Source: Mesorhizobium xinjiangense (lineage in GTDB: Bacteria; Pseudomonadota; Alphaproteobacteria; Rhizobiales; Rhizobiaceae). From it: 64,000 nucleotides of DNA. Shown here one piece after another: positions 1-15,281 of this stretch. The DNA lies in assembly GCF_009749525.1 (NCBI RefSeq), contig NZ_WOAC01000011.1, positions 97,487 to 161,486 on the forward strand, given 5' to 3'. The notes under the pieces were generated by a model, which made no database searches, was not told the DNA's origin, and worked only from the letters and a program-made list of their open reading frames with translations. Both the position numbers and the translations under genes were made by a program. Every line of letters begins with the position of its first letter. The stretch's first letter is position 1.

Positions 1-377
1 CCAGCCGCATCGACGGCGTGAACATCGGAGTGCGGAAGAGCCGTGCCATCGATCGTGACGCTACCGGCGATATCGACGCTCTGGCCGGAGAGCGCTACCA
101 CGGTCTTGATGAGTGGGCTCATGCCCCCTTCGCACGTTCCCGGCCTCACATAACCGCGCTCGACGCCAAGTGCGAACGCCGGGGTGCGGGGCGGACAGAT
201 GAAGATCACATCGCCGACCGCGACCGGACGGGTCAAAGCCTCGATTCGCCAGAGTCCAAGCGGATAGCTAGGTGTCAAATTAAGTCGAAAGCCCGCGCCG
301 TAGGCGACGACCGACGTCACCGGCGGGATAAGGACGATTGCGGCGATGACGGCCGTTCGGATCCTCCTGATGGTCAC
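1..377 (-). CDS. traF: TraF conjugative-transfer signal peptidase (partial, 3' end outside window)
   Basis: About 125 residues of a peptidase S26C-type protein read leftward from a GTG start that overlaps the traA stop by four bases (GTGA). It has an N-terminal hydrophobic segment, then the TraF signature SYPLGLW at about residues 42-48 carrying the catalytic serine, and a PLIKTVVAL segment near residue 93 carrying the general-base lysine. In Ti-type transfer systems TraF cleaves and cyclises the pilin and lies directly after traA, as here. The C-terminus and any traB lie beyond the window edge. Family assignment is firm; function is inferred from the family. Confidence 0.85.
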   Translation of the reverse strand, partial: MTIRRIRTAVIAAIVLIPPVTSVVAYGAGFRLNLTPSYPLGLWRIEALTRPVAVGDVIFICPPRTPAFALGVERGYVRPGTCEGGMSPLIKTVVALSGQSVDIAGSVTIDGTALPHSDVHAVDAA

Positions 378-3300
378 TTCAGTGCCTCGGATTGGCGCTG
401 CGACTGGCGAAGGGCCTCGGTGTCCTTGAGAGCCTGCGTCGTGCGCTCATGCGCGGCAAGTTGCTGACCGGCGCGCATTGTCGGCCATGCCGACGCCAGC
501 CTTTCCCGCTCACCCGGCGCCATGCCGAATGCCTGTTTTTCGAATGTCGAACCAGTCGCATCTTTGGCGGAGTTGGAAAGCAGGGTGCGTTCGCCGAACC
601 GTTCAGACACAGCTTTGTTGAAGGCATCGATCTCCGCTTTGACCATCTTGTCTGCCAATGCGAAGCCGAGCGCGGCGGGCAGATCATTGCGATCGATCGC
701 ATCGCGCACGCGTTCGAACACCTGTCGGGCATTCGAGGAAAGCGCCGGAATATCGACGGAGATCTTGAGGCGACGCGCGCGTTCCTCGGCCTGGTGCTTA
801 TGTTCGGCTTCGGCCCGCTGGCGGAGGTAGCTGTCAAGGTTTCGGGCAAGCGCCGATGTGTTAAGCTTCGCGGTCTCGCGATCCTGCTTATCGGCACGGC
901 TCGCGAGCAAGCCAGTCTTGCCCTTCAACGCGCCGAAGCTCTCTGGATCATTTGCGATCTTCGCGGTCGTGGACTTGGCAAGCGCCGCATCCTTTACCAT
1001 TGCGTCGACATTGACGGCGGCGAAGGCAGCTTCCGGTTGGGCGTAGACCAGATGGAAGCGGGTGGAGACCTCTTCCCATTGCGTCTTGAGGGCAGGATCG
1101 GCGGCGAGCCTATCCTCCACCGCCTGCTCAATGGATTTCGGGAAGATGGTGACGCCAGCTACCATGGGTCTAGCCTCCTTGATTTCGCTGGATTGGGATT
1201 GTTGGTGCGCGCCGGAAAACAGCCCGAGCCGCCCGGCAATCGCGCGCAGGCGGGTCCCGAATTCGGCTAGCTTCTGTTTTTGGCGAATGGTCCAGGCGAG
1301 CCGGTCGCGCGCCATAGTACGCGCAACGGCCATGAGATTGAGCCCGCGGATTTCGGCAAAGCGAAGAGCGGCGCGATAGAGGGACGTCTTCTCGTAATCG
1401 AGCGTGGTTTCTTTTGAGCCGTCACGCGACAGACGTTCGGCAACCCGCGACAGAGCCAGCTCGCGGATGTCGACGACCTCCCAGGAATGGCGCTGTACCG
1501 TCTGTCCGCCTGGAAGCACGACCGGCTCCGAACCTTTATGCTCGAGACCGATGCGATCACCGATACTGGGCGCGGCCTTTGTCATTGCGCGCTCGAGATC
1601 GACGCCCCAGATCGTGTTTTGCTGGCCCTCGCCGTTTTCGAGGGTCACAAAATAGCTGTCGCGGTTTTGCGGCTTGTTCTCATAGGGTGCTACACCGTGA
1701 CCGACGAGAATGCCGCCCGTTCTGGTGAAGTCGTTGAGAGCGACATAGAGCCGGGCATCGTGCCGATGGCGGGTCAGTGCCACATAGGTGAGATGACGGT
1801 CGAGCGAGCGCGAGGCGAGGACCTTTACGCTGTCGACTGTAGCGCCCTGTGATTTGTGAATTGTTGTGGCGTAGCCATGATCGACATTGCTGTAGAAGCG
1901 CTGCTCGACCGTGATCTCACGACGATCATCGCCGACGCCGATCTGCGCTATGATGCGGCCCAGCGAAGCGTCGACCACTTTCGCCAGCATGCCATTCTTG
2001 ACGCCGAGCGATCCCTCGTTCTTGAGGAACATGATCTGGTCGCCGACTGCAAAGTTGCGGACTCCGTCCTCGGTCCGGAAGGCAAAGCCTTCGCCGACAA
2101 CACCGCGCTCGACCAGCTTCTCGCGTGCCATCTCGTTGAGTGCTCGCACGTCGCGACGCATATGCGCAAGGATGAGCGCGGTCCGCTCCGGGTCGTAATC
2201 GCGGTTCCAGTCCGCGATGAGGGATTGGACGGCTTCATCCCGCGTCCATTCTCCCCGCACCATGCCGGCATTGTCGTAGGAATCGAGTGCTGCGCCGATA
2301 TTGCCGCGGGCGAGATCGGTCGACGCCTTGCGCATCCATCCTTCCCGCTGGCGGTAGATAATCCCGAGTTCGGCGTAGCCGATGCGATCGGCAATGGCGC
2401 GGAAAGCCGCACCTGCATCGATCGGCTGGAGCTGGTCGGGATCACCAACGAGGACGAGCTTGGCGCGTGCCTTCGTCACCGCCTCGACGAATAGCGCCAT
2501 CTGCCGCGAAGACACCATGCCGGCTTCATCGAGCACGAACACGGTCTTGTCGTCGAGCAGGTCCCGATCCTGTTGCCACCGCAGCTCCCACGACGAGAGC
2601 GTGTGGGAGGCAATTCCCGCTTCCTTCTCCAACCCTTCGGCCGCCTTGCCAGCCAGTGCGCCACCGACAACCCGATAGCCGGAGGCTTCCCATGCCTCGC
2701 GGGCGGCTTTCATCATGGTCGTCTTTCCGGCGCCTGCTCGGCCAACGATCGCGGCGATGCGAGCGCCTCTGGTGGCATGCTCGATGGCCGAACGCTGCTC
2801 TTCCGACAGGCGCTCATGGCGCGCAAAGGTCTTTTCCAGCACGGCGTTGGGTACGCCATGCGACGAACGTCGGGAGAGCCAGACCGCTCTTGCCGCCATT
2901 CCGGCTTCAAGCTGGATCAGCTCGCGCGTCGTGAACTTCGCCGGCGCCCGCTGTCCGCTGGCGAACGAGATGTGCTCTCGCTCCAACCGCAGCAATTCGG
3001 GGCTTTGTAGGACGCGCGCAAGCAGGCTCTGGAAGAAACCCGCATCGTCGACATAACGGTGCAGGATCTTCGCCACGTCGCGCTCATCGAACACGCTCTT
3101 CTCTCGCGTGATGAGATCCAGAACCAGTTCCGGATTCTGCCGAATGCGGCGGGCATTCTCCGCGCGTCGCTCCTCCAGAAGCTCGATCCGTTCAAGCTCG
3201 AGCCTCCCGCCGCCGGATTGCGCCTTGCGCTCCATCGCCTTGGCGCCAACACCAAGATGGATAGTCGGGACGAGGTCGATGCCCTGCTTCTCATATGAGC

Positions 3301-3952
3301 GGCCATCGACGCGCAGAGCGATTCCGTTGATCGCAAGATGATGGTTCAGCCGTTCGAACCACGCGTCTCGAAAGGTGTTGAAATCCTTTGTGCCACCAGC
3401 CCAGAGTTCATATTGGATTTTGCCGGCTTTCGTTCGGAGCAGCTGGCCGTCAGGACCGATCACCCCAATCTTCTTTGGCCCGAACCCATCTTCCGTCAGT
3501 GGGCGCAGGGTCATCATCAAATGGACATGCGGGTTGCCGGGATTGTCATGATAGACCCAATCCGCGACCATGCCCCTCGCAAGAATCTGGTTCGCCACGA
3601 AATCCCGCACCAAAGCGATGTTCTGCTCGACCGAGAGTTCGAGCGGCAGGGCGATGGTCACGTCCTTGGCGAGCTGGGAATCGGCGCGTTTCTCGAAGGC
3701 CTCAACCTTGTTCCAGAACGCCTCGGATGCTCCGGCGACCGACCTGTCGTCGATCATCGTCCTGATCCAGTCGGGGGCGTCCGACGGGATCACAAACTCT
3801 TCGTGCAGCAGACCCGCTTTACGCGAGTAGTCGATTGTCCGCGCTTCGCGCTCGTACTCCATGCGCGCACAATGCCGGTAGGCCGCCGACAGCACAGCGC
3901 TGCGCCCGTCGCCGCGGCTGACGATGCTGGCGGAGAAATGCGCAATGGCCAC
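374..3952 (-). CDS. traA: TraA relaxase-helicase (Ti-type, MobA/MobL N-terminus)
   Basis: Protein of 1192 residues that nicks oriT and unwinds the transferred strand. The relaxase domain has the likely nucleophile Tyr25 (AAYRHC) and the metal-binding His cluster in PHVHLMM near residues 140-146. An SF1 helicase follows: Walker A GRAGAGKTTMM near 403-413, Walker B FVLDEAGM near 472, GDPDQLQP, and TTIHKSQGAT. I chose the GTG at 3952 (VAIAHFSAS) because a GAGGG ribosome site lies about 10 bases upstream and the relaxase family starts with this sequence. The open frame continues upstream to 4552 but would run through oriT, traC and part of traD on the other strand. It is transcribed divergently from traC-traD-traG. 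Confidence 0.93.
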   Translation of the reverse strand: MAIAHFSASIVSRGDGRSAVLSAAYRHCARMEYEREARTIDYSRKAGLLHEEFVIPSDAPDWIRTMIDDRSVAGASEAFWNKVEAFEKRADSQLAKDVTIALPLELSVEQNIALVRDFVANQILARGMVADWVYHDNPGNPHVHLMMTLRPLTEDGFGPKKIGVIGPDGQLLRTKAGKIQYELWAGGTKDFNTFRDAWFERLNHHLAINGIALRVDGRSYEKQGIDLVPTIHLGVGAKAMERKAQSGGGRLELERIELLEERRAENARRIRQNPELVLDLITREKSVFDERDVAKILHRYVDDAGFFQSLLARVLQSPELLRLEREHISFASGQRAPAKFTTRELIQLEAGMAARAVWLSRRSSHGVPNAVLEKTFARHERLSEEQRSAIEHATRGARIAAIVGRAGAGKTTMMKAAREAWEASGYRVVGGALAGKAAEGLEKEAGIASHTLSSWELRWQQDRDLLDDKTVFVLDEAGMVSSRQMALFVEAVTKARAKLVLVGDPDQLQPIDAGAAFRAIADRIGYAELGIIYRQREGWMRKASTDLARGNIGAALDSYDNAGMVRGEWTRDEAVQSLIADWNRDYDPERTALILAHMRRDVRALNEMAREKLVERGVVGEGFAFRTEDGVRNFAVGDQIMFLKNEGSLGVKNGMLAKVVDASLGRIIAQIGVGDDRREITVEQRFYSNVDHGYATTIHKSQGATVDSVKVLASRSLDRHLTYVALTRHRHDARLYVALNDFTRTGGILVGHGVAPYENKPQNRDSYFVTLENGEGQQNTIWGVDLERAMTKAAPSIGDRIGLEHKGSEPVVLPGGQTVQRHSWEVVDIRELALSRVAERLSRDGSKETTLDYEKTSLYRAALRFAEIRGLNLMAVARTMARDRLAWTIRQKQKLAEFGTRLRAIAGRLGLFSGAHQQSQSSEIKEARPMVAGVTIFPKSIEQAVEDRLAADPALKTQWEEVSTRFHLVYAQPEAAFAAVNVDAMVKDAALAKSTTAKIANDPESFGALKGKTGLLASRADKQDRETAKLNTSALARNLDSYLRQRAEAEHKHQAEERARRLKISVDIPALSSNARQVFERVRDAIDRNDLPAALGFALADKMVKAEIDAFNKAVSERFGERTLLSNSAKDATGSTFEKQAFGMAPGERERLASAWPTMRAGQQLAAHERTTQALKDTEALRQSQRQSEALK

Positions 3953-4031: not shown

Positions 4032-4065
4032 ACGTCGCGCCAGCGACGTATAATTGCGCCCTTGG
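4032..4065 (+). other. oriT core with nick site (Ti/IncQ type)
   Basis: The intergenic gap between divergent traA and traC is where Ti-type plasmids keep oriT. It contains a perfect 7-bp inverted repeat, ACGTCGC-GCCA-GCGACGT (4032-4049), followed directly by ATAATTGCGCCCTTGG. The GCGCCCT part matches the nick region of Ti and IncQ/RSF1010 origins, where cleavage falls between GCG and CCC (here after 4058). This is established for the family and inferred here. The transferred strand cannot be proven from sequence alone. Confidence 0.85.
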
Positions 4066-4207: not shown

Positions 4208-4471
4208 ATGAAAAAACCGTCCTCGAAAATCCGCGAGGAAATCGCCCGCCTGCAGGAGCAGCTCAAAGCCGCCGAGACACGCGAGGCCGAGCGCATCGGA
4301 CGTCTGGCCCTCAAGGCCGGTCTCGGCGACATCGACGTGGAGGAGGGTGATCTGATATCCGCGCTCGAGGAGATTGCCGGCAAATTTCGCAAGGGCAGCG
4401 CCCGGCAGGGAAAGCCGGCGGCCTCGCCGGTCGCGTCTGGCGCGACTGCGCGGTCGCCTGGGGAAGCTTGA
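4208..4471 (+). CDS. traC: TraC-like conjugal transfer accessory protein
   Basis: An 87-residue protein beginning [19 protein letters not shown], with a charged coiled coil at about residues 6-30 and the family segment [17 protein letters not shown] in the middle. TraC of Ti plasmids is about this size and helps TraA process oriT. The start follows GGGAG by 8 bases. The frame is open further upstream but has no ribosome site there. First gene of the traC-traD-traG operon; traD starts 4 bases after its stop. Confidence 0.85.
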
Positions 4472-4475
4472 GCGC

Positions 4476-4691
4476 ATGCGACAAGCCAGCCAGACCGAAG
4501 CGCGCCGGAAGGATGCCAGGGAGAAAATCCAGCTCGGCGGCCTGATTGCCAAGGCGGGTTTGCGATATGAGAAGCGTGCGCTGCTGCTCGGGCTTCTGAT
4601 CGACGGCGCCAGCCGGATCAGAGCCGACGAACGCGAGCGGGCGCGACTGCTGACAATCGGCGAAAAGGCGTTCGCGCATGACCCCGACTAG
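4476..4691 (+). CDS. traD: TraD conjugal transfer protein
   Basis: A 71-residue basic protein, [17 protein letters not shown] at the N-terminus and [20 protein letters not shown] in the middle, matching the small TraD family of Ti-type systems. It sits between traC and traG, and its last 14 bases overlap traG, so translation is probably coupled. TraD is a relaxosome accessory protein of poorly known biochemistry. Identity rests on the motif, size and gene order. Confidence 0.85.
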
Positions 4692-6603
4692 GATCGCCCT
4701 GCTTGCCTCGCCGTGTATCATCATGGTCTGCGTGGTCATTTCGCTCACTGGCATCGAGCAATGGATGGCGAGCCTGGGGAAGTCGCCGCAGGCGCAGATC
4801 ATGCTCGGCCGGATCGGGATTGCTCTGCCCTACGTGTCGGCGGCAGGAACCGGGATTATCTTCCTCTTTGCTGCAAAAGGCGCGGCCGCAATTCGCTATG
4901 CGGGTGTTGGAGTTCTGATCGGCACGCTCGCGGTCGTGATAGTCGCCGTGGTCCAGGAAGCGCTTCGGTTGAGCTCGTTCGCCGGCGCGTTGCCGGTAGG
5001 TAGCACCATTGCATCCTATATCGATCCGGCGACAGCCATGGGCGCGACAATCGCGTCAGTCGCCGGCGTCTTTGCACTGCGGGTCGCGCTTCGCGGCAAT
5101 GCCGCCTTTGCCCCATCGAGCCCGCGCCGCGTGCGCGGCAAGCGTGCGGTTCACGGCGAAGCTGAATGGATGGAGCTCAACGCCGCCAAACACCTCTTCC
5201 CCGACGTTGGCGGCATCGTCGTCGGGGAGGCTTATCGCGTCGACAAGGATGTCGTCGCCGATCGCGGGTTTCGCGCGGACGATCCTGATACGTGGGGCGC
5301 GGGTGGCAGATCTCCGCTGCTTTGCTTCGACGCGTCGTTCGGTTCCACGCATGGGTTGGCGTTCGCCGGTTCGGGCGGTTTCAAGACGACATCCGTAACG
5401 GTTCCGACTGCGCTCAAATGGGGCGGCGGCCTGGTCGCCCTCGATCCCTCCAATGAGGTCGCGCCTATGGTCATCGAGCATCGGCGCAAAGCCGGACGAG
5501 ACGTGTTCGTCCTCGATCCGAAGAACCCGACGACCGGGGTGAACGTCCTCGACTGGATCGGCCGCTTCGGCGGCACCAAGGAAGAGGATGTGGTGGCGGT
5601 CGCCAACTGGGTGGTTACCGACACGGGCCGGTCGACATCAATCCGAGACGACTTCTTTCGGGCGTCGGCGCTTCAGCTCATCACCGCGCTGATCGCCGAT
5701 GTCTGCCTGTCCGGCCATACGGAAAAAGAAAACCAGCATCTGCGTCAGATGCGCGCCAACCTGTCGGAACCCGAGCCGAAGCTGCGCGAGCGATTGCAGC
5801 AGATCTACGACAATTCAGCATCGGGTTTCGTGAAGGAGAACGTCGCGCCGTTCATCGCCATGACCCCGGAAACCTTCTCCGGCGTCTATGCCAATGCGGT
5901 CAAGGAAACCCACTGGTTGAGCTATCCGAACTATGCCGCGCTGGTGTCGGGCTCGAGCTTTTCGACCGACGACATCGCCGAGGGCAAGACCGACATCTTC
6001 GTCCAGCTCGACCTCAAGACGCTTGAGACCCATCCGGGTCTCGCACGCACCATTGTCGGGGCGCTGCTCAATGCGATCTACAATCGGAACGGAGAGGTGA
6101 ATGGCCGAACTCTGTTCCTTCTCGATGAGGTGGCGCGGCTAGGCTATCTGCGCATTCTCGAAACCGCACGGGACGCCGGACGAAAGTACGGTATCAGCCT
6201 TGTGCTGTTGTTCCAGTCGATTGGCCAGATGCGCGAAACCTATGGCGGCCGAGACGCCACCTCCAAATGGTTCGAAAGCGCATCATGGGTGTCGTTCGCG
6301 GCCATCAACGACCCGGAAACGGCGGACTATATCTCGCGCCGTTGCGGCAACACCACGGTTGAGGTCGACCAGCTCAGTCGATCGTCGCAGATGTCGGGGT
6401 CATCGCGGACACGGTCGAAGCAACTGGTATCCCGGCCTCTGATCCTGCCCGAGGAGGTGCTGCGAATGCGCGGTGACGAACAGATCGTGTTCACAGCCGG
6501 CAATGCGCCGCTGCGCTGCGGACGCGCGATCTGGTTCCGACGCGACGATATGAAGGCAGTCACCGGCAAGAACCGATTCCACCGGGAGAAAGAGGAGTCA
6601 TGA
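4678..6603 (+). CDS. traG: TraG type IV coupling protein (VirD4 family ATPase)
   Basis: A 641-residue inner-membrane ATPase that delivers the relaxosome to the mating channel. The N-terminus has three or four hydrophobic segments (about residues 6-28, 45-65, 72-92, 115-135). The Walker A motif GSGGFKTTS is at about 230-238 and Walker [13 protein letters not shown] at about 479-490. Length and order match Ti TraG. It overlaps traD by 14 bases and the next gene by 4, so this is a tight operon. Confidence 0.95.
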
Positions 6604-8568: not shown

Positions 8569-8949
8569 TCAGTCGCCGTCAGGTCCCCACAGCGGATTGA
8601 AGGCCGGATCCTCGATGCGGCTGTCGTTCGGCAGGCCCAGCTCGCGGATGACCGCCATGATCGGAGAGTTGCCGATGTGGGTGCGACGTTGCGCGACAAG
8701 GATGCTGACCGCCGTTTCGTTGGCCTCGATGGCCCGGATGGCATCCTCCATGTCGTCGAGAGGGCCGAGATTTTCAACAGGCTCGTAATCGCCATAGTCC
8801 TCGTCCCACTTGCCTGCGATATACATCGGCGCATTTTCCAGTCGCTTCGCGGCCTGCTCCGCCTCGCGGATCATCCGGAAGCCCAGTTTGCGCTGCCTCC
8901 AGTATTCCGCGCTGCCTCCATCGATTGAGATGATTTTCCGGTGGGTCAT
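8569..8949 (-). CDS. Hypothetical protein, 126 residues (accessory backbone)
   Basis: Starts MTHRKIISIDGGSAEYW and ends DPAFNPLWGPDGD; acidic, with no motif I recognise. The ATG at 8949 follows AAAGGAG by 7 bases. A longer open frame to 9507 is only the leader read through. It is monocistronic, preceded by the structured leader repeat (copy A) and followed by a hairpin terminator, the same layout as the two genes to its right. Confidence 0.75.
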   Translation of the reverse strand: MTHRKIISIDGGSAEYWRQRKLGFRMIREAEQAAKRLENAPMYIAGKWDEDYGDYEPVENLGPLDDMEDAIRAIEANETAVSILVAQRRTHIGNSPIMAVIRELGLPNDSRIEDPAFNPLWGPDGD

Positions 8950-9128
8950 ATGAAGTCTCCTTTCGTCTTTCTGACGGAAGGGGCCCGCACCGTAGCCGCG
9001 AGGGGTCAGGGATCGCAAAGCGACCGCCAGCGGCGGCGAGCGGGGGAGCCGAAATGCGACAGCATTTTGGGGGGACCGCTCGTCCTTGACGCCGGAGTGG
9101 CGGGTGCAAAATGCCATGTCAGAGAGAG
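8950..9128 (-). promoter_or_regulatory. Structured leader repeat, copy A
   Basis: Untranslated region directly upstream of the 8569-8949 gene. Plus-strand arms GTCAGGGAT (9005-9013) and GTCCTTGAC (9082-9090) can pair. They enclose a hairpin CCGAAATGC-GACA-GCATTTTGG (9049-9070). The same architecture recurs at copies B, C and D upstream of other small minus-strand genes. Confidence 0.7.
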
Positions 9129-9169
9129 ATAGCCCGCGGCCCCGACCAGGGGCCGCGTCCGTATAGATG

Positions 9170-9300
9170 GGGAAGGTCTGGAAGGGGGTGGACCACCCCT
9201 TTCCAGGGGTGGGGGAGTTGGAGGGGGCGGGGCTTGCCCTGCCCCTTCCGGGGAGAGTTTGAGAGGGCGGCTTCCCCCTCTCATAGAGGACTGCGGGCCG
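9170..9300. repeat. Purine-rich intergenic repeat, copy 2
   Basis: Same order of motifs as 8345-8490: a GGGGAAGG opening, a hairpin GGGGCGGGGC-TTG-CCCTGCCCC, then GAGAGGG-CGGCTT-CCCCCTCTC. The hairpin arms differ from copy 1 but still pair. Confidence 0.55.
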
Positions 9301-9354
9301 GTCGATCCGGTTCGATGTCCTGCACACCGTATCCGCCAGAGCAGAAGCATCGGG

Positions 9355-9387
9355 AAAGAAAAGGGAAGGCGACAGCGCCGCCTCCCC
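9355..9387 (-). terminator. Rho-independent terminator
   Basis: Minus strand: GGGGAGGCG, a loop, CGCCTTCCC, then TTTTCTTT, directly after the stop of the 9396-9941 gene. A near-identical stem ends the next gene to the right (10205-10233). Confidence 0.7.
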
Positions 9388-9395
9388 GGTAGCCG

Positions 9396-9941
9396 TTACC
9401 ACGGGATTTCGGCGTCTGGGTCGAAAGCCGGCATCGTCTTCGTCGCCTCGGGATTGCGCGGCCTTGGCTTGTAGATGACCATGTCGTAGGTGAACGCTAT
9501 TCCGCACTCGATCTCGATGTCATCGAGAATGGCGGGCAGACCGCACAAGCGTTCTCGGGGGATATCGATGACGCGCGGAATTTCGTCAGCGAACTCGGTT
9601 TTCCCAGTGACGGGATGTCGAAACGAACCATCGGGTTCCGAGCGATTCCATCCACCTACCTCGAGAGGTTGGCAATCGTACCAGTTGCGCTCCGTTGCAT
9701 TCTGGCGTTGAAGCAGATGGTAGATGAGGTCATCCTGCTCATCTGGATCGGTTTCGCATGTGGCTTGGCATGCGAGGTGGATCAATTCGGCCAGCTCCGC
9801 GCGGAAACCGTCGAGGACGGCGATGACGTAATCATGGGTCTCCCGTGCGAAATCGCTGTCGCAACCGAAGCGGTTGGCCCGCACGAGGAGCTTGAAGCCA
9901 GCGAGCTTCACAATGAGGTTGAGCGCTTGCGAGGAATTCAT
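9396..9941 (-). CDS. Hypothetical protein, 181 residues (accessory backbone)
   Basis: Begins MNSSQALNLIVKLAGFKLL and carries an acidic C-terminal half with VIDIPRERLCGLPAILDD. I recognise no catalytic motif. The ATG at 9941 follows AAAGGAG by 9 bases. It is a single-gene unit with structured leader copy B upstream and a strong terminator downstream. Confidence 0.75.
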   Translation of the reverse strand: MNSSQALNLIVKLAGFKLLVRANRFGCDSDFARETHDYVIAVLDGFRAELAELIHLACQATCETDPDEQDDLIYHLLQRQNATERNWYDCQPLEVGGWNRSEPDGSFRHPVTGKTEFADEIPRVIDIPRERLCGLPAILDDIEIECGIAFTYDMVIYKPRPRNPEATKTMPAFDPDAEIPW

Positions 9942-10140
9942 AGGAAAGTCTCCTTTCGTTTCTAATGGAAGGTGCCCGCACCGTAGGCGCGAGGGGTCAG
10001 GGATCGCGTGAGCGACCGGCGGAGCCGGCGAGTGGGGGAGCCGAAATGCGCAAGAATTTTGGGGGGGACCGCGATGTCCTTGACGCCGCAGTGGCGGGTG
10101 CACACTGGGACGTCAGAGGTAGATCAGCCCGCGGCCCGCC
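9942..10140 (-). promoter_or_regulatory. Structured leader repeat, copy B
   Basis: Outer arms GTCAGGGAT (9996-10004) and GTCCTTGAC (10076-10084). The inner hairpin CCGAAAT...ATTTTGG (10041-10062) has a larger loop than copy A. It directly precedes the 9396-9941 gene. Confidence 0.7.
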
Positions 10141-10204
10141 AGGGGACGCGACCGCATCCGGCGACTAGCCGGCAATAGCGCTGCCCGATATGCGAGATCG
10201 AATT

Positions 10205-10233
10205 CAGGAAGGCGACCAAAGCCGCCTCCCCGA
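10205..10233 (-). terminator. Terminator-like hairpin
   Basis: Minus strand GGGGAGGCG, a loop, CGCCTTCC, then TGAATTC, after the 10254-10724 gene. The stem matches that at 9363-9387; the T-run is weak. Confidence 0.5.
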
Positions 10234-10253
10234 GCGTCGGACAGGGGGGTCTC

Positions 10254-10724
10254 CTACGCCGCAGCGTTGCGCTTGACCCGCGCGGCAATGAAACGCACGC
10301 CGATCTCGCGCTCGATTTCGGCGAAGATTTCATCAAGGCCGTCGAGCTCGGACGCCGGGACCAGAGTGTGATCCAGCGTCACGCCGCAGACGATGCCAGG
10401 CTCGTCTCCGTGAACAAGGACGCTGATCTCTTCGAGAACGGAGAACGGCCCTTCGTTGATCCAGCGCTGATCGCAGCACGGGCGCTCGAAGTAGAGGTCG
10501 AACAGGAATGCGTCCGACTCCGACTTGTGCCGGTTTGCGTCCAGCTCGATCCACATCGGAAGCTCGCTCTCTATATCGATACGCATTTCATCGAGCATCT
10601 CCAGAAGCCTGACATGCATGGCCCGGGAAAACTCCGTCCTGCACTGATCGAGTCGGACAAGGACTTCGTGGCGGATCGCTTCGACGCTGCCGAGACGCGA
10701 GTATGGATTGAAGATGTTTGTCAT
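10254..10724 (-). CDS. Hypothetical protein, 156 residues (accessory backbone)
   Basis: Begins MTNIFNPYSRLGSVEAIRHEVL; rich in Glu, Leu and Ile, with a C-terminal LDEIFAEIEREIGVRFIAARV helix. No recognised family. Two adjacent ATG codons (10727 and 10724) follow AAAGGAG; the second gives the better 6-base spacing. It is the third consecutive single-gene unit with a structured leader (copy C) and terminator hairpin. Confidence 0.7.
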   Translation of the reverse strand: MTNIFNPYSRLGSVEAIRHEVLVRLDQCRTEFSRAMHVRLLEMLDEMRIDIESELPMWIELDANRHKSESDAFLFDLYFERPCCDQRWINEGPFSVLEEISVLVHGDEPGIVCGVTLDHTLVPASELDGLDEIFAEIEREIGVRFIAARVKRNAAA

Positions 10725-10727
10725 CAT

Positions 10728-10945
10728 GAACTCCTTTCGTCTTTCTGACGGCAAGGAGCCCACGCTGTAGACCAGAGGGGTCAATGACCGCGGAACGCGG
10801 CCGTCCCGCGGCAAGCGGAGGTGCCCATTTTCTGGAGGCGCCCGCCAGGGTGTCGGCAGAAAATTGGAGGTGCCGCGCCGTCATTGACGCCGGATGGGCT
10901 GGCGTACACTAGGACGTTCAGAGGAAGACCCGCGCCCAAAGGGCG
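10728..10945 (-). promoter_or_regulatory. Structured leader repeat, copy C (divergent)
   Basis: Outer arms GTCAATGAC (10780-10788) and GTCATTGAC (10880-10888) pair perfectly. The inner hairpin CCATTTTCT (10825-10833) with AGAAAATTGG (10858-10867) has a different sequence from copies A, B and D but the same place and size. A further CGCGCCC-AAA-GGGCGCG hairpin follows near 10931-10947. Confidence 0.7.
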
Positions 10946-11288
10946 CGGTCCGTATCCGGTGACCAGCCGGCTCTGTACCATCCCATACGCCACGCGGACC
11001 TTGCCCGTTTTTCTGTGCCCTCGAGGCGCTGCGCGAGGATCGTCACCGAATGGCAGAGACCGCTTGCGGGCTTCGTAAGCGCCGCCTTGCGTCGCGAGTA
11101 GAGCCGTTCGCTCCCCGAGCGGCGGCGCCCAATCCCTCCGGTCGAAAATCATCGTACTGGCACGACACCACCATGCTGTAGGGAACAGCAACTGCCCCCA
11201 AGGGGCCATCACTGAAATGAATCGGTCATGCCCGAGCGATTCACGAAATGCGTTGGACGCCGCTTCCAAAGGAAGCGAGACTCCAGCC
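10946..11288. other. Intergenic stretch, no gene seen
   Basis: About 340 bases between leader copy C and the WGR gene. No credible coding frame; it probably holds the WGR promoter, which I cannot place. Confidence 0.4.
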
Positions 11289-11531
11289 ATGGAGAACGAA
11301 GAGACAGGTCCGGTTCATCTTCGCCGCATCGATCCGTCGCAGAATATGCGCCGATTCTATACGCTGGCCATCCAGCCGACATTGTTCGGTGGCGCGTCCG
11401 TCATCCGCAACTGGGGCCGGATCGGCACGAACGGCCAGTCCATGATGGAAACCTTCGATCAGGCCGAAGAGGCGGGGGCGACTATGGCTAAGCTGGAACG
11501 AACCAAGCGGCGGCGCGGCTATCGGGATTGA
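11289..11531 (+). CDS. WGR domain protein
   Basis: An 80-residue protein that is essentially one WGR domain: HLRRIDPSQNMRRFYTL, then VIRNWGRIGTNGQSM with the diagnostic W-G-R, and a C-terminal KLERTKRRRGYRD. WGR domains bind DNA ends or breaks in PARP-type and molybdate-regulator proteins. Free-standing small WGR proteins are common on alphaproteobacterial mobile elements. ATG at 11289; upstream in-frame codons lack a ribosome site. Confidence 0.85.
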   Translation: MENEETGPVHLRRIDPSQNMRRFYTLAIQPTLFGGASVIRNWGRIGTNGQSMMETFDQAEEAGATMAKLERTKRRRGYRD

Positions 11532-11687
11532 GCCGGCTCAGGAAGAGCAGATGCCGAAACCGCCTTGAACCCATGAATTCCGGCCGTTTTCGGTGGATTT
11601 TCGCAGATGATGAGCTGGCCGGCCTCTTCCGAAGGGAGGCATTCGTTGTCATAGGTGGTTGGGGCTTTCCAACACAAAGGTATTTCA

Positions 11688-11966
11688 ATGACAACAACGA
11701 ATGAGATTGCCGACAAGATCGCATCCGAGCAGAGCCTGACCAAAGCTCAGGCCAAGTCGATCGTTGAGAGCGTGTTCCACCAGATTGTGGACGCGGCCAA
11801 GACCAACGCTGAAACCAGCGTGCCCGGATTTGGCAAATTCAAAATCAAAAATACCCCGGAACGCGAAGGCCGGAACCCTTCGACTGGTGCGACGATCAAG
11901 ATTGCGGCCTCGAAAAAGCTGACCTTCACACCGGCGAAGGCGATCAAGGATGCCCTCAACGGCTGA
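11688..11966 (+). CDS. HU family DNA-bending protein
   Basis: A 92-residue histone-like protein. The hallmark GRNPSTGATIKIAA arm begins near residue 60 and is followed by KKLTFTPAKAIKDALNG; VPGFGKFKI lies before it. Full length for HU. It may organise element DNA or assist recombination and transfer. Free-standing, with a hairpin region downstream. Confidence 0.93.
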   Translation: MTTTNEIADKIASEQSLTKAQAKSIVESVFHQIVDAAKTNAETSVPGFGKFKIKNTPEREGRNPSTGATIKIAASKKLTFTPAKAIKDALNG

Positions 11967-12009
11967 GCCGGGACGGGCAGATGCGCACTCGCTCGCATCC
12001 GAAAGTCGT

Positions 12010-12067
12010 CAGCGCCGCACGTAAGCGATGCGGCGCTGATCAAAGCCTCCCTAAAAGGGAGGCTCGG
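12010..12067. terminator. Convergent terminator region with two hairpins
   Basis: AGCGCCGCA...TGCGGCGCT (12011-12037) and GCCTCCCT-AAA-AGGGAGGC (12045-12063) lie between the HU gene and a convergent small minus-strand gene, whose stop codon falls in the second loop. GGCGCTGATCA also occurs twice here, 34 bases apart. Confidence 0.5.
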
Positions 12068-12215
12068 CGCTGATCAGGCCCTCCATCTCGGCCCAGATCT
12101 CCTCACGCTCGGCAAGTGCCTTCTCCAGTTCGGTCTCGATCCAGCGACGCTCGTCCTGATAGACGGCATTTCGCAGCTCGGCACGCAGCTCCTCGATGTG
12201 CTGATCGATCAACAT
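12051..12215 (-). CDS. Small coiled-coil protein, 54 residues
   Basis: Encodes MLIDQHIEELRAELRNAVYQ then a helix of alternating charged and hydrophobic residues ending ISAEPPF. AAGGAG lies 7 bases before the ATG, and structured leader copy D precedes it, as for the genes at 8.6-10.7 kb. It is too short to judge by statistics alone, but the ribosome site and leader support it. Function unknown; the heptad pattern suggests self-association. Confidence 0.65.
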   Translation of the reverse strand: MLIDQHIEELRAELRNAVYQDERRWIETELEKALAEREEIWAEMEGLISAEPPF

Positions 12216-12361
12216 TGGTCATCTCCTTGATGTTGGTGAAAGATGACATCGGCGGTCATGGTGGGCCGGAGGGGTCAGGGATCGCGTAGCGACCGGCGGA
12301 GCCGGCGAGTGGGGGAGCCGAAATGCGTCAGCATTTTGGGGGGACCGCTCGTCCTTGAGGC
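12216..12361 (-). promoter_or_regulatory. Structured leader repeat, copy D
   Basis: Outer arms GTCAGGGAT (12274-12282) and GTCCTTGAG (12351-12359), and inner hairpin CCGAAATGC-GTCA-GCATTTTGG (12318-12339). Nearly identical to copies A and B, and upstream of the 54-residue gene. Confidence 0.7.
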
Positions 12362-12480
12362 CTTCGGGTCGCCATGGCATCCTCGGATGATCTGAGCAGA
12401 CACCCCGGTCCCGGTTGCACGCCCGACAACCCGCCAGCAGGCTCGATGCCTGCTTGCGGGTTCATCACGCGCGTAGGGAA

Positions 12481-12499
12481 CCCCGCCTTGGCGGCGGGG
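12481..12499 (-). terminator. Terminator-like hairpin after DUF736
   Basis: CCCCGCC and GGCGGGG around a short loop, followed by TTCCC on the minus strand, just past the DUF736 stop. Confidence 0.45.
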
Positions 12500-12516
12500 C
12501 TCCATCTTGGCGGGGA

Positions 12517-12834
12517 TCAGCTCTCCCGCTTCGGGCGGTTCCAGATGAGGGCGTATGCTCCCTCCTGCTCGCTCGGCCAAAGCGCCGCCGTGATCGGGGC
12601 GTTGAAGCTCGGATCGTCCAGCTTGACGGAGACGTATTCCTCGCCGTCATTGGAGACCTGCTTCCAGCCGGCGCCGACCTCGACGTTGTTTCCGGCGGTA
12701 ACGCGGAAGTCCGGGGCGTCGCGCGAGACACGCTCGATCGGGTTCAGGCGAGCCTTGAAGCTGACGCTAAGGGTGCGGACGAAGCCGACGATGCTGTTGT
12801 TGCCGTTGGTGGTGAATTCGCCGATGACAGCCAT
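12517..12834 (-). CDS. DUF736 family protein
   Basis: A 105-residue protein starting MAVIGEFTTNGNNSIVGFVRTL, with GAGWKQVS and YVSVKLDDPSFNAPITAAL in the second half. This is the conserved DUF736 pattern found on most alphaproteobacterial plasmids and integrative elements. No function is known. It is monocistronic, and its long leader shares motifs with that of ardC. Confidence 0.92.
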   Translation of the reverse strand: MAVIGEFTTNGNNSIVGFVRTLSVSFKARLNPIERVSRDAPDFRVTAGNNVEVGAGWKQVSNDGEEYVSVKLDDPSFNAPITAALWPSEQEGAYALIWNRPKRES

Positions 12835-13100
12835 GACTGTTTCCTTTCGGGTTTGCTCGGGCCGCGCCTATCGCGACCTCGATGGCGGTGTAAGGACCGG
12901 CGGCGAGCGGCTCCGCACCCACCGGGCCGGAACGAAGTGGAGGGCGGACGGGGACGGTCTTTTTGCTTCGCGATGCAAAGCCCGGCCTGCCGGGCGGCGG
13001 AAAAAGATCGGAAACGACCGTTGCGGAAAGGCGATCGAGACGAAGTCGGCCTCCGGTCACACCAGATCCATTGAGGTCTGCGTGGGTGCGCCATGACCCA
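12835..13100 (-). promoter_or_regulatory. Leader of DUF736, shares motifs with the ardC leader
   Basis: Contains GCCGCGCC-ATCGCG-CC (from 12861) and an 18-base stretch GCCGGAACGAAGTGGAGG (12926-12943) that is identical in the ardC leader (15139-15156). No open frame of its own is convincing. Confidence 0.55.
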
Positions 13101-13533: not shown

Positions 13534-14082
13534 TCAGCGTGCTTCCGCATCGTATTGCTCGAGCCACAGTCGCAGCTCCTGGCGCATACGGCCGATCGGG
13601 CCGTTGATCTCAGTGATCCGAGCATCGGCGGCGACATAGCCACCGTCGCGGAACAGTCCGACGAAATGGCGCATGATGTCGAGATAGAGATGACCGCCCA
13701 CGAGAGCGACTTCGGCAAACGGACATCGCCTAAAGGCGGTCATGCTGCCGATGTGCATTCCTGGATGTTCGCCGGACGGCATCACGCGCCGCTGCGTTTT
13801 TGGACGTGGCCAGCGCGTCACCAGGCCGCCCGCCTTCATGGCGATGGCGGTCTCTTCGGTCATGCGCTTGTCGTAAGTTTCGATCGGCGTGCGAGCGTCA
13901 CGAAACCCGTAGTGGGCGGAGAGGACGGCGACGCGGGCCTTCGTTCCATCCGGATCGACGTGGCGCAATGTCTGCCAGAGCGGGCCATCATAGCGCTTGA
14001 TGGCCGGCATGTAGGCCGGCCCTTCGCGCTTGGTCGCCGAGCAGGCGAGGATCAGCAACCGGAAAGAAGGAAGTGGCGCCAT
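13534..14082 (-). CDS. DUF6884-like protein
   Basis: A 182-residue protein. LLILACSATKR at residues 9-19, PAIKRYDGPLWQTLR at 26-40 and VAVLSAHYGFRDARTPIETYDKRM at 51-74 match the DUF6884 pattern, a fold related to nucleoside or tRNA-base handling proteins. The ATG overlaps the ardC stop by one base (TAATG), so translation is probably coupled and it belongs to the ardC operon. Function unknown. Confidence 0.75.
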   Translation of the reverse strand: MAPLPSFRLLILACSATKREGPAYMPAIKRYDGPLWQTLRHVDPDGTKARVAVLSAHYGFRDARTPIETYDKRMTEETAIAMKAGGLVTRWPRPKTQRRVMPSGEHPGMHIGSMTAFRRCPFAEVALVGGHLYLDIMRHFVGLFRDGGYVAADARITEINGPIGRMRQELRLWLEQYDAEAR

Positions 14083-15008
14083 TACGCCGCCTCCCTTTCA
14101 GTCTTCACCTGCGGCTGGAGCTGATGAAGGAAAGCGACCGCTCGCTGCGCGTGCGCCGCCGCCTGAAAAATCGCACGCTTGTCCCCCTGAAGAACGCGCA
14201 ACCACGATTGAACGTAACTGGCGTGATCGGGGCGCGGCTCCAGCTCCGGCACGATGCCGAGATCGGCGCAAAGGAGTGCGGAGCCGATCTCCGCGACCAG
14301 CTCCTCCCTCGCGCGTTCGCTCCGATCTTTGGAATAGCGGCTGAGGTCTCGGCCGACGCGACGAGGGTCCGCCGTCCAGTGGACATGCTCATGTCCGAGG
14401 ACGGCAGCGTAAGACGCGGCGTCACGGAAAGTCTCGAACGGCGGCATCTGGATGTGGCCCGAGGACGGCGAATAGAACGCCTGCGAACCGCCATGCCGGA
14501 TCTCGGACCCGGTGTTGGTAAAGAAGCGATCGGCATGTTCGATTCGTTCGATCGGATCTTCGACCGGCTCGGGCTTGTGATAATAGTGGTCCGGCAGGCC
14601 TTCGATCTGCTCGACGTTGAACACCCCATACGCTTTCAGGAAGGGGATTTCCCTGTCGACCTCGCTGCCTTGCGCATCGGTCTCTGTCTTGGTGAACCGG
14701 CTGGCATAGATGACAGTCGAGCTGGTCTCGCCCTTGCGGACGTGCGCCCCAAGCTCGCCGGCCTGGCGGAACGTCATCCAGATCGGAGTAGCGTAACCGT
14801 TCGCCATCGCTTCCGACCAGAGAAGCAGAACATTCATGCCAGTGTATGGTTCGCCGTTGTGGCGCAATGGGCGCGTGATGCGGCCCTTCGCGTGGCTCGC
14901 CCGCCAGGGTTGCACCCACGGCCGAACGCCCTTTTCCAGCTCCTCGACGATCTTTTCGGTGATCCTTACATAGATGTCGGCGCGCGATCCGTTTTCTTTC
15001 CTACTCAT
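14082..15008 (-). CDS. ardC: ArdC-type anti-restriction protein (ssDNA-binding domain plus metalloprotease domain)
   Basis: A 308-residue protein. The N-terminal half (about 10-130) is the ArdC N domain: YVRITEKIVEELEKGVRPW, then GMNVLLLW and WMTFRQAGELGAHVRKGE. The C-terminal half is a zincin-like domain with the HExxH zinc motif in GHEHVHWT near residue 203 and EELVAEIGSALLC as the third ligand region. ArdC of IncW plasmids protects incoming single-stranded DNA from host restriction. Full length. First gene of a two-gene operon with the DUF6884 protein. Confidence 0.92.
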   Translation of the reverse strand: MSRKENGSRADIYVRITEKIVEELEKGVRPWVQPWRASHAKGRITRPLRHNGEPYTGMNVLLLWSEAMANGYATPIWMTFRQAGELGAHVRKGETSSTVIYASRFTKTETDAQGSEVDREIPFLKAYGVFNVEQIEGLPDHYYHKPEPVEDPIERIEHADRFFTNTGSEIRHGGSQAFYSPSSGHIQMPPFETFRDAASYAAVLGHEHVHWTADPRRVGRDLSRYSKDRSERAREELVAEIGSALLCADLGIVPELEPRPDHASYVQSWLRVLQGDKRAIFQAAAHAQRAVAFLHQLQPQVKTEREAA

Positions 15009-15175
15009 TTTCTTCGAACCTCCGTTGAGGAGGCCGCGCCGATCGCGGCCCCGTTACGGGGTCCGTCGGCCGGGGAGGCGGAAGGGCGCGCACCCGACCG
15101 GGGTCCCCGTCGCGCCTGCGCGATGGGGTGGTCACGAGGCCGGAACGAAGTGGAGGACGGCGAAGCCGTTGCGCG
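15009..15175 (-). promoter_or_regulatory. Leader of ardC, shares motifs with the DUF736 leader
   Basis: GCCGCGCCGATCGCGGCC (15033-15050, itself an inverted repeat) and the 18-base stretch at 15139-15156 match the DUF736 leader in order and orientation, with different spacing (106 against 65 bases). The rest of the gap to 15281 shows no gene. Confidence 0.55.
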
Positions 15176-15281
15176 AACCGCCGATCCCCGGCAGGACCAG
15201 CGTCCGGAACGGGGCCGCGAGCGGCATTTCTCCGACCCTTGCCTATCCTTGGTCTTTAATTTCAGCGCCGGACGCGCTATG

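Follow-up and report, generated by a model that had tools for sequence, protein, structure and literature searches.

Why should four small minus-strand genes in the 64-kb window (the whole stretch of DNA analysed here) each be preceded by a copy of one DNA element? The preliminary description had noticed the same architecture upstream of all four, and we recovered every copy in its place. Including the outer arms, element A spans 8977..9136 (core 9001-9094; cmsearch score 104.5 bits), element B 9968..10130 (core 9992-10088; 91.3 bits), element C 10752..10934 (core 10776-10892; 89.2 bits) and element D, a class 2 member, 12246..12405 (core 12270-12363; 99.7 bits). All are placed on the plus strand and are predicted to fold; the fold of B is weak, its inner hairpin being partly decayed, and C carries a long inner hairpin. 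The letters of the outer stem, GTCAGGGAT/GTCCTTGAC in A and B, GTCAGGGAT/GTCCTTGAG in D and GTCAATGAC/GTCATTGAC in C, were as reported, including the sixth pair, which is G-C and becomes T-A in copy C, and the fifth, which is G.T or A-T. As read from the T-strand sequence, a -35-like and a -10-like box occur in A (TTGACG 9086-9091; CAAAAT 9107-9112), B (TTGACG 10080-10085; CACACT 10101-10106), C (TTGACG 10884-10889; TACACT 10905-10910) and D (TTGAGG 12355-12360; CATCCT 12378-12383, after a 17-nt spacer).

The minus-strand genes themselves offer few clues. The one beside element A (8569..8949; 126 aa) has no Pfam or PADLOC match and has homologues in 10 retrieved loci. Those beside B (9396..9941; 181 aa) and C (10254..10727; 157 aa) have no Pfam match, and the one beside D (12051..12215; 54 aa) has none in the Pfam copy scanned, PF27469 being found in 56 of 56 among its relatives listed. 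PADLOC matched 0 of 6 proteins. The four products had been called unrelated, which does not wholly hold for those of B and C, as these are distantly related (22% identity over 134 positions, E 5e-6). Two further minus-strand genes belong to the putative leading region that these four share: a DUF736 gene (12517..12834; Pfam PF05284) and an ArdC-type anti-restriction gene (14082..15008; Pfam PF08401 and PF18818). A regular-expression search of the leaders of these two genes listed no match to the TTG..TAnnnT pattern. The DUF736 leader is foldable and differs from elements A-D.

Merging of nhmmer hits gave 71 candidates, of which 65 elements were kept after five duplicates and one sequence without anchors had been dropped; 35 of these 65 went into the covariance model, R1. 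Two samples of 65 and 58 elements yielded 113 distinct cores, 111 of them with enough flank for the gene test. The elements measure 160-186 nt with their arms and reach seven copies per locus (seven in L005, six in L096). Of 297 genomes sampled from the window's family, 83 contain them. Plasmid records matching copy D numbered 490, and the names Rhizobium, Agrobacterium, Sinorhizobium or Ensifer account for at least 385 of these; we take the named hosts of the family to be Alphaproteobacteria. The covariance-model search found no element in the Ti plasmid region of pTiAg57 (L131). In the whole 5.26-Mb genome there were four model matches (150 of 7,823 first-look candidates scored), all of them A-D at one locus. 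Each copy had its counterpart in the Phyllobacterium locus L013 as its best match (93, 90, 96 and 89% for A to D), and non-counterpart copies were at most 86% alike. Thus, the copies are not recent duplicates, in keeping with the earlier view that simple duplication does not account for them. The suggested comparison with Rfam returned no covariance-model match, either at the gathering score in the 64 kb or at E 1 in 8900-13100, and Rfam families were rejected for A-D.

The predicted fold, its covariation and the strand that folds were computed directly. Elements A-D share a predicted four-way-junction fold, with covariation. Under RNA parameters the plus strand was more stable than its complement in all four copies (A -55.1 vs -41.7, B -42.5 vs -28.3, C -65.2 vs -54.8 and D -46.3 vs -32.7 kcal/mol), as the preliminary description had proposed; copy B compares weakly with shuffles (z -1.69 with RNA parameters, 0.05 with DNA parameters). 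With DNA parameters, 64 of 65 elements were stabler on the T-strand (mean z -4.0 vs -2.0), for which a stable fold is thus predicted, and wobble cells on the plus strand were 82 G.T vs 9 A.C. Compensatory changes, the other sign of a conserved structure in the initial account, were borne out: double compensatory cells numbered 43 vs 8.7 in shuffles (0/500 as high; 35 of 65 elements). Covariation was 0.177 vs 0.084 in shuffles (0/500 as high) and 0.015-0.069 with the partner slid, a control that leans toward the given structure because that structure was drawn from the copy D fold; the shuffle controls keep the relatedness among elements, which inflates shuffle-based significance. Pairing extends outward beyond the outer stem first described. 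An element's own outer arms paired better than swapped ones across all elements (z -12.8, 0/10,000), in class 2 (z -9.8, 0/10,000) and in class 1 (z -2.8, 39/10,000). The fold is predicted to rebuild the -35 and -10 boxes in a stem, a geometry that minimum-energy folds give only partly: the outer stem appeared in 51/65, a clamp stem past the -10 appeared in 24/65, and the -10 was predicted to be only partly unpaired (mean 0.67 and 0.57). In that analysis the -10 offset was picked to fit A/T; the fixed-spacing counts given below were made separately.

The window also holds a Ti-type transfer system, with the relaxase TraA (MOBQ; 374..3949; NCBIfam TIGR02768, 1024.8 bits) on the minus strand and TraC (4208..4471; NCBIfam NF043004) and the coupling protein TraG (4678..6603; NCBIfam TIGR02767) on the plus strand. 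A putative nic site, TAATTGCG/CCCT, lies at 4051..4062 on the plus strand behind an inverted repeat, ACGTCGC..GCGACGT. It resembles the RSF1010 nic substrate, given as TAAGTGCG/CCCT in the pertinent part of the source (PMC4814116). Judged by this similarity and its polarity, the T-strand would begin at 4059 and extend rightward to the elements, and the plus strand would be the one transferred in conjugation, which would explain why it is the plus strand that folds. Of 80 TraG loci, 50 carried a plus-strand match to the nic motif (at most one mismatch) located 624-673 bp upstream of traG, and none carried a minus-strand match at that distance. Matches overall numbered 52 in 1.58 Mb; in locus L056 an extra one-mismatch site lies 7 kb upstream of traG on the minus strand. 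An order-wide nic search of 297 genomes, run without a paired element search, gave a match in 10 genomes.

Side and orientation relative to nic and the transfer genes, likewise computed directly, were fixed. In the 80 TraG loci, all 49 elements (five of them exact duplicates) shared the strand of traG and lay on its 3' side; 48 of the 80, some of which end at contig ends, showed no element of the A-D family. Where a TraG locus had both nic and an element, the element was on the nicked strand and 3' of nic, 3.2-6.5 kb away, in 29/29. For the second sample, 40 loci were collected with the covariance model alone; judged by length, 7 of their 40 contigs were shared with the first sample. Here the predicted strand and side were seen in 17 of the 18 loci that had a nic match (six of the 17 on shared contigs) and wherever a transfer protein was matched: TraG (25/25, three only 22-27% identical), TraA (24/24), TraC (18/18) or a putative relaxase of another type (Pfam Relaxase; 10/10); six of the 40 had none of these markers. 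Exceptions were a weak hit (L108 8992-9086, 39 bits) on the opposite strand and without a gene start, and a one-mismatch nic on the wrong strand in L130. By the RSF1010-like nic polarity, the elements would thus lie 3' of nic on the strand to be transferred, in a leading region.

We then considered the boxes, whose -10 signature and distance from the gene start were also obtained by direct computation. On the 3' arm of the T-strand, A-11/T-7 stood 15-17 nt after the -35-like anchor in 108 of 113 distinct elements, vs a mean of 12.7 and a maximum of 24 in shuffles. On the gene-direction strand, which a duplex promoter would use, the count was 3/113, and spacings from 8 to 29 gave at best 17/113 (at 27). 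Conservation of the -35-like hexamer is not independent evidence, because the hexamer served as search anchor. The -10 of class 2 is weak and degenerate (CAnnnT), and the 15-nt spacer of class 1 is short for a duplex promoter. Of 111 distinct elements, 104 had a Shine-Dalgarno sequence and start codon at 47-57 nt from the core, on the side where the T-strand would be the template of the downstream gene; on the opposite side a gene start was present in only 8/111.

We consider it likely that A-D are single-stranded-DNA promoters that work like Frpo of the F plasmid and belong to an unrelated, alphaproteobacterial sequence family, as their predicted folds and box positions suggest. On arrival in the recipient, the entering T-strand would fold into a branched junction whose stem sets the -35-like and -10-like boxes beside the gene start, and the recipient RNA polymerase could transcribe the gene while the DNA is still single-stranded. 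The 5' arm would serve as template and the 3' arm as non-template. Second-strand synthesis would switch the promoter off, as no suitably placed -10 is present on the gene-direction strand.

It is unlikely that the elements are ssi sites only, at which RNA polymerase or primase would prime the second strand on the folded T-strand without making a gene transcript. Such sites would be predicted at the same place and on the same strand, and the paper on Frpo mentions promoter as well as primer activity in its title; however, up to seven copies per locus weigh against this explanation, and a primer site needs no start codon at a set distance. Binding of a plasmid protein to the folded or duplex DNA is very unlikely: genes for a ParB-like protein and HU are present in the region, but strand-specific wobbles argue against duplex binding, and A-11/T-7 is not predicted. 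Highly improbable, too, is an ordinary promoter in the duplex that points right, away from the gene, and may yield an antisense RNA of the neighbour. It would account for A-11/T-7 behind a TTGA-like box on the plus strand, but gene starts are seldom on that side, and the fold, the outer-arm covariation and the tight distance to the left gene would be left unexplained. The RNA antisense to the genes that the preliminary description proposed meets the same scarcity of gene starts; moreover, the plus-strand promoter signature sits 3' of the fold, so the fold itself would not be transcribed from it. Its other suggestion, a cruciform, would fold both strands and explains neither the excess of G.T over A.C cells nor the fixed orientation to nic, and both proposals were rejected.

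A structured, riboswitch-like 5' leader RNA of the minus-strand genes is scarcely credible. The elements do precede genes and their complement folds somewhat (mean z -1.96), but nearly all fold better on the opposite strand, where the G.T excess implies the reverse ratio for a leader RNA, Rfam offers no match at E 1, and the orientation to nic is unexplained; this reading was rejected. Dispersed REP-like or non-autonomous mobile repeats, suggested by palindromic, multi-copy sequences, were also rejected and are hardly tenable, as all model matches among the genome candidates scored lie at one locus, and the copies are orthologous with those of L013 and in a single orientation except for one weak hit.

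Returning to the reading of A-D as single-stranded-DNA promoters, we compared them with known systems as presented in the portions of the literature concerned with them. The examples given of such promoters come from F and ColIb-P9 of E. coli (PMC9849209, PMC11541004, PMC8708921). Frpo1 and Frpo2 of F and the ssi promoters of ColIb-P9 are described in the leading region, upstream of T-strand-templated genes, with promoter boxes rebuilt when the T-strand folds (PMC9849209, PMC11541004). Elements A-D likewise lie in a putative leading region, and their T-strand fold is predicted to rebuild boxes. Unlike Frpo, the A-D family forms a short branched junction, occurs in up to seven copies per locus and sits 47-57 nt from the start codon; R1 had no match in F 44000-68000 (L090), 24 kb that include the leading region. 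In the F regions taken as Frpo1 and Frpo2, chosen by position before ssb and by mutual similarity, the presumed T-strand likewise outscored its complement (-125.0 vs -113.9 and -119.1 vs -111.6). No good TTGACA/TATAAT pair turned up when these presumed regions were scanned with a simple search, and the element geometry is therefore not calibrated on them.

The EGeRS of pLS20-family plasmids are repeated structured sequences upstream of establishment genes, for which the authors rejected a single-stranded-DNA promoter, partly from the nicked strand (PMC8708921). A-D resemble them, as far as described there, in being repeated structured sequences before genes of a conjugative element; in contrast to EGeRS, the nicked strand fits the promoter reading for A-D. 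Frpo-like candidates of anti-defence islands were found in four islands by similarity to five known sequences or by TTGACA/TATAAT boxes (PMC11541004) and share with A-D, in that account, a leading region with anti-restriction genes. The main text of that article contains 0 occurrences of Alphaproteobacteria, Rhizobi- or Agrobacterium. Among the literature matches listed, in which subscription journals are thinly covered, none was a paper on an alphaproteobacterial single-stranded-DNA promoter.

More broadly, conjugative plasmids and integrated elements of Alphaproteobacteria probably have their own class of promoters active only as single-stranded DNA. These would form a branched junction with the -10 on the far arm, absent from the gene-direction strand of the duplex, would turn establishment genes on at entry and off with the second strand, would be common to elements with different relaxases and would have arisen independently of Frpo. 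If true, this would reveal how plasmids of rhizobia and agrobacteria achieve expression of their first genes after entering a new host. Sequence alone would then flag uncharacterised small genes as candidates for first-expressed establishment or anti-defence functions, and more than 100 distinct natural variants would allow direct structure-function tests.

The four elements, whose cores lie on the plus strand at 9001-9094 (A), 9992-10088 (B), 10776-10892 (C) and 12270-12363 (D), each precede a small minus-strand gene. A search of the 5.26-Mb genome with the covariance model at E 1, in which 150 of 7,823 first-look candidates were scored, matched these four and nothing else. The plus strands of A and D are predicted to form a four-way junction, in which the outer stem meets a pair of short hairpins and a third, long arm, and the predicted fold of C differs from these in detail. 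Element B (9968-10130) is partly decayed and its inner hairpin is partly broken; its Phyllobacterium counterpart (L013, 14057-14217) looks intact. The eight best matches of the gene following element D in other loci each adjoin an element.

Next, we analyzed which strand folds. Across 35 elements, 94.7% of cells were paired in the drawn structure, with 43 double changes versus 8.7 and a covariation of 0.177 versus 0.084 in shuffles that keep relatedness in. The plus-strand cells comprised 1,000 Watson-Crick, 82 G.T, 9 A.C and 52 other combinations. With DNA parameters, the plus strand was the stabler one in 64 of 65 elements; its advantage averaged -10.3 kcal/mol as compared to -4.7 kcal/mol for shuffled sequences, which thus favor the plus strand too. 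The elements fall into two classes, class 1 (A, B and C) with a spacer of mostly 15 nt between the -35-like and -10-like boxes and class 2 (D) with mostly 17 nt. Outer arms paired better with their own partners than with arms taken from different elements, an effect that was strong in class 2 and weak in class 1.

To the left of the elements, NCBIfam identified a Ti-type relaxase TraA on the minus strand and TraC and TraG on the plus strand. A putative nic site, TAATTGCGCCCT, preceded by an inverted repeat, lies between TraA and TraC (4051-4062, plus strand) and was recognized by its similarity to the RSF1010 relaxase substrate. The latter is described as consisting of a hairpin and then TAAGTGCG/CCCT, of which the portion past the slash remains attached to the relaxase (PMC4814116). 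Judged from this resemblance, the transferred strand (T-strand) would be the plus strand; it would start from a 5' end at position 4059 and run right, and 8.5-15 kb would form the leading region. Distances from nic to the starts of the element cores are 4.9-8.2 kb, and the putative leading region also holds ArdC and DUF736 genes. The WGR-domain and HU-like genes (11289-11531 and 11655-11966) run in the opposite direction, pointing away from oriT, and neither is preceded by an element; the Ti plasmid pTiAg57 carries a WGR and an HU gene in the same orientation to traG.

We scanned 84,980 species, one genome per species, and kept the best 80 loci of 434 TraG relatives; the taxa sampled throughout are mostly rhizobial relatives. 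In 32 of the 80 loci we found 49 elements, five of them exact duplicates, and all 49 were on the traG strand and 3' of traG, with similar amounts of sequence searched on either side of the traG start (0.75 and 0.83 Mb). On the plus strand, 50 of 80 loci had a nic match ahead of traG, and no locus had one there on the minus strand; two more matches, each with one mismatch, are on the minus strand of L056 and L057, 7 kb ahead of traG. Strand and side agreed in all 29 loci having both nic and element; three loci (L012, L013, L086) carry elements without a nic match. The element family was absent from 48 of the 80 loci, where other leaders may therefore serve.

For a hairpin promoter whose template continues 5' into the gene, the geometry suggests that the non-template boxes would have to run outward from the junction along the 3' arm. 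The TTGA-like hexamer used as the search anchor was TTGACG, TTGAGG or TTGATG in 96 of 113 distinct elements. Downstream of it, on the 3' arm of the T-strand, nAnnnT occurred at a spacer of 15 (43 elements), 16 (21) or 17 nt (47). Altogether, 108 of 113 elements had the motif at one or more of these spacers; shuffles gave a mean of 12.7 and a maximum of 24. For sigma-70, A-11 and T-7 are the -10 bases that matter most. The same test on the complementary, gene-direction strand, at the place that a duplex promoter of the gene would use for its -10, was positive in 3 of 113. In 104 of 111 distinct elements, a Shine-Dalgarno-preceded start codon opening a frame of at least 50 codons was found 47-57 nt off the core, as compared to 8 of 111 on the other side (per sample, 62/64 and 51/57 versus 5 and 4). 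In copies C and D, the T-strand can form an additional predicted hairpin in the stretch from the element to the start codon, overlapping the ribosome-binding site (10730-10757 and 12216-12250); among the folds listed, it also occurs in L007, L067 and L041.

The simplest account is that the elements are candidate promoters, which would form while the transferred strand is single-stranded and be lost upon second-strand synthesis. Such behavior has been reported in vivo for Frpo1 and Frpo2 of plasmid F (PMC9849209). The elements are predicted to be the same kind of device, although they belong to a different sequence family. In the F plasmid (L090, 12343-12755), the strand taken as the T-strand ahead of an antirestriction gene is predicted to fold into a long branched stem, much like the window elements; the 3' arm of this stem carries TTGCAT-N15-TAAGAT, whose -10 would fall within an internal loop.

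Ahead of the DUF736 and ArdC genes lie GC-rich leaders of another kind (12835-13100 and 15009-15270); the eight listed of each carry variants of a common core such as CGGAACGAAGTGGAGGACGGC. Of the two strands, the T-strand folded better in 44 of 45 DUF736 leaders listed (66 found) and 35 of 40 ArdC leaders listed, both counts lacking a shuffle control. TTG..TAnnnT was not found in the leaders listed. These leaders are possibly a second family of single-stranded-DNA promoters.

Finally, a covariance-model search of 297 genomes of the family detected elements in 83, and 40 regions were picked from its matches with transfer genes disregarded (seven are contigs of the first sample). TraG (25/25, three matches at 22-27% identity and thus VirD4-like), TraA (24/24) and TraC (18/18) all lay on the predicted strand and side, as did nic in 17 of the 18 loci having a match; in L130, the exception, the match is on the other strand and has one mismatch. 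One weak 39-bit match (L108, 8992-9086) is on the strand opposite to its neighbor 1.2 kb off and adjoins no gene start. Among the matches listed, five plasmids with oriT and element (OZ000536, OZ012602, CP049221, KY000050 and KY000049) all showed the predicted arrangement by eye. A different relaxase (Pfam Relaxase, PF03432), first met on the MOBP-typed plasmid L009, likewise lay on the predicted strand and side in all 10 loci with a match, counted row by row (L091, L094, L097, L107, L109, L112, L115, L121, L126 and L129). Because the same element adjoins a different relaxase, different transfer systems may have swapped the leading-region module.
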